Assembly (NCBI GenBank): GCA_004769085.1
Contig: DUDS01000035.1
Span: forward strand, 1 to 64,000
Source of the DNA: Candidatus Melainabacteria bacterium SSGW_16
GTDB lineage: Bacteria; Cyanobacteriota; Vampirovibrionia; 2-02-FULL-35-15
Length of the DNA: 64,000 nt
Reading direction: 5' to 3'
Shown piece after piece: positions 9,518 through 12,177 of the stretch. The position numbers and the translations under genes were made by a program. The notes beneath the pieces are model-generated. The model was not told the DNA's origin and ran no database searches. It saw only the letters and a list, made by a program, of their open reading frames with translations. Numbering within the stretch: position 1 is the stretch's first letter; every line of letters begins with the position of its first letter.

Positions 9518-11014
9518 ATGCCTACAGCAACATTAACCTATAAAAACAATATTGGCGGCAACCTTTCAGAGAGTTCATCAAAAGACTTTTTTGAAAAATA
9601 CAATCCTGCTGATAAATCAGAACTACTTGGAAAATTCCCAAAATCAAATCAAAAAGATCTCGATAATGCTGTAAGTATTGCAAAAAAAGCCTTTGAGATA
9701 TGGCGTTATACACCTGCGCCAAAAAGAGCTGAGATACTTTATCGTGCAGCAGAAATAACAAAGGATCAAAAAGAAGAACTTTCAAGAATTCTTACCAAAG
9801 AAACAGGTAAACCTATTGTAGAAGCCAGAGGAGAAATCCAGGAAGTAATTGATACTTATTTATTTTTTGCTGGTGAAGGCAGAAGAATTTATGGGCTTAC
9901 AGGTCAAAGTGAATTACAAAACAAATCAATAATTACAATCAGGCAGCCAATTGGAATATGCGGATTAATAAGTGCCTGGAACTTCCCTGCTGCAGTTCCA
10001 AGCTGGAAAGTTGCTCCTGCACTTATTTCAGGAAATGTAGTGATTTTAAAACCATCAAAAGATGCACCAATGTCTGGTTATATGCTCATAGAAAACTTAT
10101 ATAAAGCGGGTCTTCCGAAAGGTTGTGCAAGTATACTATTTGGCACAGGAGAATTTGGGGATCTTATTGTCAGACATCCTGACATAAAAGTTATAAGCCT
10201 CACAGGCTCCGTTGAAGTAGGGAAAATGGTTTATGAAACTTGTGGGAGAATGCTTAAAAAATGTGCTCTTGAGCTTGGTGGAAAAAATGCAATTATAGCC
10301 CTTGAAGATGCAAATCAGGATTTGCTTCTGGAGGGAGTATTATGGGGGGCATTTGGCACCACTGGTCAAAGATGCACTTCAACAAGCAGACTCATATTGC
10401 AAAAATCTTCCTGGAGCAATTCTTTTTTAGAAAAGTTTGTAAATGCTGCAAAAAAATTAACCGTTGGAAACGGACTAAATGAAAAAACCCAGGTCGGACC
10501 ATTAATTACAAGCTCACATAGAGACAATGTTCATGATTTTGTAGAAAGAACAGTTAAAGAAGGTGGTAAAGTTCTTTGTGGCGGGAAATCCCTGACTGGT
10601 GGCGAATATGACAAAGGTAATTTTTATGAACCCACCATTGTTTCAAATATAAAACCAAATATGGAACTTGCCTGCAAAGAAGTTTTTGGTCCTGTTTTAG
10701 CAGTAATAGAAGTTAATGATATTAATGAAGCTGTAAAAGTTGCAAATAATGTTGAGTACGGTTTATCACTTTCCATTTACACAAAAGATATAAATTTAGC
10801 CATGAAAGCAGGAAATGAATTTGAATCCGGCATTGTTTATATTAATGCTCCTACAATTGGTGCTGAATGCGGTGGTGCTGCAGCATTTGGCGGGTGGAAA
10901 AATACCGGAAACGGAACCCGCGAAGGTGGGGTAATGGCACTGGATACTTACACACAGTACAAAACTATTTATATTGATTATTCAGACAGACTGCAAAGAG
11001 CACAGATTGATTAA
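9518..11014 (+). CDS. NAD(P)-dependent aldehyde dehydrogenase
   Basis: Oxidises an aldehyde, probably the semialdehyde made by the preceding aminotransferase, to a carboxylate. The 498 residues cover the whole ALDH fold: ISAWNFPAAVPSWK (about 151), the NAD loop KPSKDAP (about 178), GSVEVGK (about 229), the general base in ELGGKN (about 251), the catalytic Cys in GQRCTSTSR (about 285) and EVFGPV (about 389). The C-terminus (INAPTIGAE, then TGNGTREGG and a VDYS-like end) resembles the semialdehyde/piperideine-6-carboxylate branch rather than betaine aldehyde dehydrogenases. AGGAG lies 11-12 bases before the ATG, so the two genes are one operon. With sucCD elsewhere in the window, a GABA-to-succinate route is plausible but unproven. 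Confidence 0.93.
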   Translation: MPTATLTYKNNIGGNLSESSSKDFFEKYNPADKSELLGKFPKSNQKDLDNAVSIAKKAFEIWRYTPAPKRAEILYRAAEITKDQKEELSRILTKETGKPIVEARGEIQEVIDTYLFFAGEGRRIYGLTGQSELQNKSIITIRQPIGICGLISAWNFPAAVPSWKVAPALISGNVVILKPSKDAPMSGYMLIENLYKAGLPKGCASILFGTGEFGDLIVRHPDIKVISLTGSVEVGKMVYETCGRMLKKCALELGGKNAIIALEDANQDLLLEGVLWGAFGTTGQRCTSTSRLILQKSSWSNSFLEKFVNAAKKLTVGNGLNEKTQVGPLITSSHRDNVHDFVERTVKEGGKVLCGGKSLTGGEYDKGNFYEPTIVSNIKPNMELACKEVFGPVLAVIEVNDINEAVKVANNVEYGLSLSIYTKDINLAMKAGNEFESGIVYINAPTIGAECGGAAAFGGWKNTGNGTREGGVMALDTYTQYKTIYIDYSDRLQRAQID

Positions 11015-11139
11015 TTAAAATCGGATTTATCTTTCCATTACTACTTAACAAGATTTAATTAAACCTATACCTCTTAACATATTAAAACAAACTTGTGATA
11101 CAATAAATTCATAGTTAAAAACAGGGTGATTTTTAATCC

Positions 11140-11192
11140 GGAGGGTGACTCAAAACTAGCTCCTGAGCTAGTTTAGTCATGTTTTGCCAATG
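11140..11192 (+). promoter_or_regulatory. Leader hairpin between Shine-Dalgarno and start codon
   Basis: GGAGGG at 11140-11145 is a strong ribosome-binding sequence but lies 44 bases from the ATG at 11190. Between them is a nearly perfect hairpin. The inner arms are AAACTAGCTC (11153-11162) and GAGCTAGTTT (11165-11174). The outer arms are TGACT (11146-11150) and AGTCA (11175-11179), with a two-base bulge. If it folds, the Shine-Dalgarno ends up about 10 bases from the ATG, or 4 from an in-frame TTG at 11184. No T-run follows, so it is not a standard terminator. Confidence 0.6.
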
Positions 11193-11684
11193 GAAGGCAG
11201 ATGGGTACGTGAAATTAATTTTGAAGAAAATCTTTTAGATAATCATGTTAATTACAGTAAAAATAAAAAGCTAAAAGAACAACTTGAAGTTATCACCGAT
11301 GAAATTATTACTATTTGCTATCAGATAGAAAAGGAAGTGCTTACAAAAGGTTATATTTCTAATGAATTACTAACTCGTTTTGAAGCACTTAATGAATTAA
11401 ACTCAGTTTATAAAAAAGCACTGGGCTATGAAAGTCCTTATATAGTAGATTTTCCAAAAGAACTAATAATAGAGTATAAAATTTTAAAAGAAAAAACAGA
11501 AAAAATTATTGATAATACAAAGAAACAAATAGAGATTATTGGTGGTGTAGAAGAAAGTGAAGTGCTGGTAGAAATTCTAAATTACAGATTTAAATCACTT
11601 TGCATACTTTGTCTTCATTATCAGAGAATTCTTGCTGTAAGCAATAGTTCTCATAGCCTAAGTGCAGAAGAAGTTATGAGCTAA
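11190..11684 (+). CDS. Orphan small helical protein
   Basis: About 165 residues, not recognised. It is rich in Glu, Lys, Ile and Leu with heptad-like spacing through most of its length (LKEQLEVITDEIITICYQIE, EYKILKEKTEKIIDNTKK), so it is probably an all-helical cytoplasmic protein. There is no signal or membrane segment, and two close Cys occur late (LCILCLHY). The start is uncertain: an in-frame TTG at 11184 is also possible, but the ATG fits the folded-leader spacing better. Its 3' end overlaps ribH tail to tail by 11 bases. It may encode a small lineage-specific helical factor; I infer no function. Confidence 0.72.
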   Translation: MEGRWVREINFEENLLDNHVNYSKNKKLKEQLEVITDEIITICYQIEKEVLTKGYISNELLTRFEALNELNSVYKKALGYESPYIVDFPKELIIEYKILKEKTEKIIDNTKKQIEIIGGVEESEVLVEILNYRFKSLCILCLHYQRILAVSNSSHSLSAEEVMS

Positions 11685-12177
11685 ACCTTGCGGGACTTAT
11701 ATTGCTTGATTTCACCTTAAAAGTTACATCAACCATTTCAAGTGCTGCTAAAGCTGCTTCAGAGCCTTTATTCCCAGCCTTTCCACCTGCTCTGTCCAAA
11801 GCCTGATCAATAGTATTTGTAGTAATTATTCCAAAAATTACAGGCATTCCACTAATAGCAGAAAGGCTGCCAATTTGATTGCTTACAGAACTACAAATGT
11901 AATCAAAGTGAGGAGTTTCACCACGGATTACAGCTCCAAGACAAATAACAGAAGAATATTTCTTAATATCAAGAAGGTTTTTTACAATAGCTGGTATTTC
12001 AAATGCCCCTGGCACTTTAACAATATCAATGTCTCTATCTTTAACCCCATATTCCTTCAGTGTTTTTAAACAACCTTCCAAGAGTTTTTCAGTAACAAAT
12101 CCATTAAATTTACTTACAACAACTGCAAATTTATTGTTTTGTCCAGGTTCTGGTTTTCCTTCAATAATATCTGTCAT
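11674..12177 (-). CDS. ribH: 6,7-dimethyl-8-ribityllumazine synthase
   Basis: Condenses 5-amino-6-ribitylaminouracil with 3,4-dihydroxy-2-butanone 4-phosphate, the penultimate step of riboflavin synthesis. The 167 residues match the family, with a short extra N-terminus. Active-site motifs are visible: VSKFNGFVTEKLLEG (aromatic pocket), VPGAFEIP, GAVIRGETPHFDYI containing the catalytic His, and DRAGGKAGNKG near the end. It follows ribBA after 6 bases in the same operon. The C-terminal tail (KVKSSNISPARFSS) extends past the usual end and overlaps the neighbouring convergent gene. Confidence 0.96.
   Translation of the reverse strand: MTDIIEGKPEPGQNNKFAVVVSKFNGFVTEKLLEGCLKTLKEYGVKDRDIDIVKVPGAFEIPAIVKNLLDIKKYSSVICLGAVIRGETPHFDYICSSVSNQIGSLSAISGMPVIFGIITTNTIDQALDRAGGKAGNKGSEAALAALEMVDVTFKVKSSNISPARFSS

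Follow-up and report, generated by a model that had tools for sequence, protein, structure and literature searches.

Within the window (the whole 64,000-nucleotide stretch of DNA that was analysed), a gene for a 164-aa, predicted helical protein lies between a gene for aldehyde dehydrogenase (ALDH) on the same strand and ribH on the opposite strand (Table 1). The helical-protein gene and ribH are convergent, and their 3' ends overlap by 11 bases (11674-11684). The leader between ALDH and the helical-protein gene carries a Shine-Dalgarno (SD)-like GGAGGG, a hairpin and a short spacer, which follow one another directly and end at the start codon.

Table 1. Features of the locus, with positions numbered from the first letter of the window
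Feature	Position	Strand	Sequence or remark	Basis
ALDH gene	9518-11014	+	upstream neighbour	
Putative extended -10 promoter	11096-11104	+	TGATACAAT (TGnTACAAT)	sequence (putative)
Distal SD	11140-11145	+	GGAGGG	anti-SD match strength and 16S tail
Hairpin, proposed to bridge	11146-11179	+		sequence; counterpart at same place in three orthologues
Hairpin outer stem	11146-11150 / 11175-11179	+	TGACT / AGTCA	
Hairpin bulge	11151-11152	+	CA, 2 nt	
Hairpin inner arms	11153-11162 / 11165-11174	+	AAACTAGCTC / GAGCTAGTTT, CT between; 100% complementary	
Inner stem as formable	11153-11161 / 11166-11174	+	loop CCTG, 11162-11165	
Unpaired spacer, stem to start codon	11180-11189	+	TGTTTTGCCA, 10 nt	sequence
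Helical-protein gene (164 aa)	11190-11684	+	start ATG 11190	ORF
ribH	11674-12177	-	downstream neighbour	

The AlphaFold model of the 164-aa protein shows four long helices (mean pLDDT 82.8). The protein matched no Pfam or NCBIfam family and no PDB fold at E<=0.001, and searches of PHROGs and of PDB by sequence and fold returned nothing convincing on its function. Homologues with 25-38% identity to the window protein (25-36% over the full alignment) were present in 6 of the 11 genomes of the family/order that were examined; none was found in 49 other genomes of the class, and a search of genome contigs with the protein detected no further homologue. The family (window 11190-11684; L009, L010, L023, L041, L042) is lineage-restricted and fast-diverging, has four helices and no known relative, and occurs in roughly half the genomes of the family, usually located between ALDH and ribH. 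The neighbourhood's named relatives are Candidatus Melainabacteria/Caenarcaniphilales MAGs. Four of the six homologues, those of the window, G001 (L009), G007 (L023) and G008 (L010), adjoin the same ALDH gene.

The start of the helical-protein gene is well constrained, because, after the in-frame stop TAG 11175, TTG 11184 and ATG 11190 are the only common start codons ahead of the homologous core. M1 is common to all six homologous proteins, and four of them begin with M-x-Q. Other readings of the initiation region were considered and rejected. TTG 11184 would keep the frame, but its counterpart in G001 falls within the hairpin. The frame read from ATG 11179 is short and overlapping, and this ATG is absent from G001. 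For a leader peptide translated from the SD, the interval 4-12 nt downstream of GGAGG offers no start codon, and the tiny GTG/ATG frames that abut the SD in the window and G001 are absent from G007 and G008.

GGAGGG has the strongest anti-SD match of the entire intergenic leader (-9.8 kcal/mol). The anti-SD GGATCACCTCCTTT is present at the 3' tail of the 16S rRNA in the window's genome, as in all 11 family genomes, and the tail contains CCTCCT. The preliminary description had placed GGAGGG, the hairpin and the ATG where the sequence bears them out, and the 44-base gap that it gave between GGAGGG and the ATG was confirmed; the stem lies 10 nt from the ATG. It had also counted 15 pairs in the 34-nt hairpin; the hairpin stands, but the count does not, since a 2-nt loop cannot close, which leaves 14 formable Watson-Crick pairs (9 inner and 5 outer). 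A wobble pair, G11145-U11180, is optional at the hairpin base. The putative -10 sequence suggests that the transcript begins near 11111, upstream of the SD. A simple promoter scan, which needs a -35, did not pick up TGATACAAT at this site; G001 has an identical TGTGATACAAT at the corresponding position.

A common layout precedes all four ALDH-adjacent orthologues, in which a G-rich SD-like motif is followed 0-2 nt on by a hairpin, with 7-11 nt remaining to the ATG. The leaders consist of GGAGGG, a 34-nt hairpin and 10 nt before the ATG in the window; AGAGGA, a 33-nt hairpin and 9 nt in G001; GGGGGT, a 25-27-nt hairpin and 10-11 nt in G007; and GTGGGA, a 31-nt hairpin and 7 nt in G008. Across the four, the SD-ATG gap is 38-44 nt unfolded and about 7-13 nt in the predicted folds. 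The stem sequences of the window, G007 and G008 are mutually unrelated, and a MAFFT sequence alignment of the four leaders misaligned the stems. G001 keeps TGACTCAAA and GTCA, that is, the outer TGAC/GTCA, and both arms of its inner helix have been replaced. At this place, the intergenic regions of both the window and G007 have their strongest anti-SD match and, beside it, their strongest local hairpin; the SD-like motif of G001 ties for the strongest anti-SD match of its intergenic region, and that of G008 is weak (-3.3 to -4.0). None of the four syntenic leaders has a canonical SD at a spacing of 3-12 (best +0.1 to +1.0 kcal/mol). In contrast, the homologues in G009 and G010, which lie in other genomic places, are preceded by canonical SDs (-6.9 and -5.6) and show neither the bridged layout nor such a hairpin. 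The conservation of motif, hairpin and spacing in four leaders with differing stems, together with the missing canonical SD, gives good comparative support to the earlier proposal that folding shortens the SD-ATG distance. In a relative without the gene (L013), ALDH and ribH are 15 bp apart, so that there is no room for the hairpin.

The frequency of this layout was estimated against 662 ORFs (crude calls) from 779 kb (~0.78 Mb), about a third of the genome. With lenient thresholds (SD <= -3.3, hairpin <= -6 kcal/mol, a gap of 0-2 nt and 6-11 nt to the start), which were chosen after inspection of the four leaders (n=4, orthologues that share ancestry), the layout was detected in 10 of the 662 ORFs (1.5%), mostly with overlap of coding sequence or a weaker score, and at 17 of 932 internal start-like codons. 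The window leader ranked first (-24.4), and the runner-up (-19.9) lies in upstream coding sequence. Among the 386 ORFs (~58%) that have no canonical SD at starts within their first 25 codons, even though the anti-SD is intact, two passed, namely the window leader and one weak case. Dinucleotide shuffling reproduced the layout in 3.6% of trials for the window leader (142/4000) and in 1.1, 1.2 and 0.6% for the other three; overall, the rate in shuffled leaders was 0.3-4%, and the picture was stable across the thresholds tried, with the G008 leader failing at SD <= -4.5. The window hairpin had the lowest energy at its place among 268 ORFs and was equalled in none of 150 shuffles. Given that 3.6% of shuffles of the window leader show the layout at lenient thresholds, a single leader is only modest evidence, and the orthologues carry the weight.

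We conclude that the leader is probably a split (non-contiguous) ribosome-binding site, in which the hairpin serves as a structural spacer that brings a distal SD within working distance of the start codon. The mRNA, probably transcribed from near 11111, would bear GGAGGG 44 nt before ATG 11190, and the 34 intervening nt would fold in the cell so that the hairpin base abuts the SD and lies 10 nt from the ATG. With the hairpin folded, the 30S subunit would find the SD and the AUG about 10-11 nt apart; GGAGGG would pair with the 16S rRNA while the hairpin stays folded, and this placement of the SD would raise translation. A further-reaching statement, which we hold tentatively and at somewhat less than even chances, is that this chromosomal gene needs the bridging hairpin, and that shape and spacing alone have been selected over genus-level divergence while stems were replaced and an ordinary SD took over in homologues elsewhere.

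The abundance of ORFs without a canonical SD counts against bridging, since starts independent of an SD appear to be common in this genome and the gene might not need one; the preliminary description therefore overstated the case when it called the unfolded gap impossible. One could envisage recognition of ATG 11190 within an A/U-rich spacer free of structure, with the hairpin acting as a 5' stability or standby element and the G-rich motif being incidental. The window AUG is predicted to be unpaired (0.96-1.00), and the motif of G008 is weak, both of which agree with such a start, yet the G-rich motif abuts the hairpin in all four leaders at a folded spacing that suits an SD, and it is the strongest or joint strongest intergenic anti-SD match in three of them. 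We regard an SD-independent start as unlikely, although it is the most serious competitor. A chance juxtaposition of unrelated hairpins and G-rich stretches would fit the single-leader shuffle rates, which are not extreme, and the ORFs and internal codons that pass the lenient thresholds; the layout in 4 of 4 syntenic orthologues, as against 1.5% of ORFs generally, and a window score that is top by far make coincidence the least probable explanation of all. Only slightly more credible is that the hairpin is an intrinsic terminator or attenuator, or a DNA operator palindrome. A simple scan marked 11153-11174 as terminator-like, and the sequence is palindromic, but there is no real U-tract, the tail AGTCATGTTT passes a lenient scan only, and the orthologues have none; moreover, the hairpin accompanies the downstream gene rather than the upstream one, and the stem sequences do not show the conservation expected of an operator. 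A terminator of ALDH was rejected on account of this association with the downstream gene and of the 15-bp ALDH-ribH spacing in L013, which lacks that gene, and a minus-strand terminator of ribH was rejected because a T-run is absent after the hairpin and the end of ribH is ~500 nt off. Even with 3 mismatches allowed, the 22-nt core occurs only once in the window's genome, arguing that the hairpin is not a repeat or MITE. As a separate observation, GGAGG[C/T]TATCTCAAA recurs many times, with copies in G001 and G010 and at L049 (G009:C1 near 8066), where it forms one end of a ~200-bp MITE-like stretch with inverted ends GGAGGTTATCTCAAAA ... TTTTGAGATAGCCTC; a search of the window's genome that allowed 2 mismatches gave no copy.

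The response to temperature, a ligand or a protein that the preliminary description raised found no support, as the leaders have no conserved loop or aptamer-like sequence and an Rfam search gave no match at the gathering threshold or at E<=1. Neither the SD nor the AUG lies within the hairpin, where an RNA thermometer would hide the SD or the AUG, and in three of the four leaders the inner helix is predicted to be present throughout the range of 10 to 60 C. A regulated form of bridging could nevertheless be drawn, in which alternative folding (SD paired with 11128-11133 versus the bridging fold), a protein, an sRNA or temperature toggles the spacer. Folding of the full leader yielded rivals to the bridging fold, which also weigh against bridging itself. 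It predicted for the window a competing structure that sequesters the SD, with GGAGGG and TGACTC paired to an upstream AUUUUU in a G-U-rich helix, and the mean unpaired probability of the SD in the window is predicted to be 0.33-0.55. For the outer stem in the window, the in silico probability was 0.04 at 10 C and reached 0.94 at 50-60 C; melting of the rival fold makes this stem likelier, rather than less likely, as temperature increases, which is no more than a weak lead. The competing fold is built on tandem G-U pairs, and this weak SD pairing was seen in the window only, the same structure being absent from G007 and G008; in G001 the outer helix is predicted to be ambiguous, with rival pairings that partly include the AUG. 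Together with the missing conserved loop and Rfam match, this makes regulated bridging improbable, and the most likely role of the hairpin is as a constitutive structural spacer rather than a switch.

If the split-site interpretation is true, RNA shape is used as a spacer by bacteria, beyond T4-like phages, and the stem sequences turn over. Gene finders and models of ribosome-binding sites usually treat SD spacing as linear sequence, and the four leaders provide natural variants of an SD-hairpin-spacing layout in a relative of cyanobacteria (Melainabacteria, Caenarcaniphilales) that is little known and does not photosynthesise. Hairpin-bridged SDs have been described so far mainly in phage T4, and a literature search of incomplete coverage found no chromosomal example; the leader is apparently a new, chromosomal instance of this known but rare arrangement. 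It shares a hairpin at the initiation region with SD-sequestering leaders (RNA thermometers, T4 gene e, homing-endonuclease genes and translational riboswitches), but these hide the SD or AUG in the hairpin, whereas here both are outside. In T4, structure shortens the SD-AUG spacing from 27 to 11 nt in gene 25 (Nivinskas 1999; Malys & Nivinskas 2009, reviewed in PMC3014915) and from 22 to 5 nt in gene 38 (PMC3014915). Weakened structure lowers translation of both genes, and the bridging structure is common to close T-even phages and missing in more distant ones (PMC3014915). Three marks of this type of leader, a distant motif complementary to the anti-SD, a bridging hairpin (here predicted) and no other SD at canonical spacing, are found in the window. 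The gene 38 leader resembles the present one in having structure that shortens the distance between SD and AUG, but is a proven phage case with a shorter gap and a smaller structure. Another close parallel is T4 gene 25, which likewise combines a distant SD with intervening RNA structure and no other SD, in a layout that close relatives retain and distant ones lack. Unlike that experimentally proven phage site, the present leader is bacterial and apparently chromosomal and is known from sequence and predicted folds; its unfolded gap is larger (44 nt), and its stems differ between relatives.
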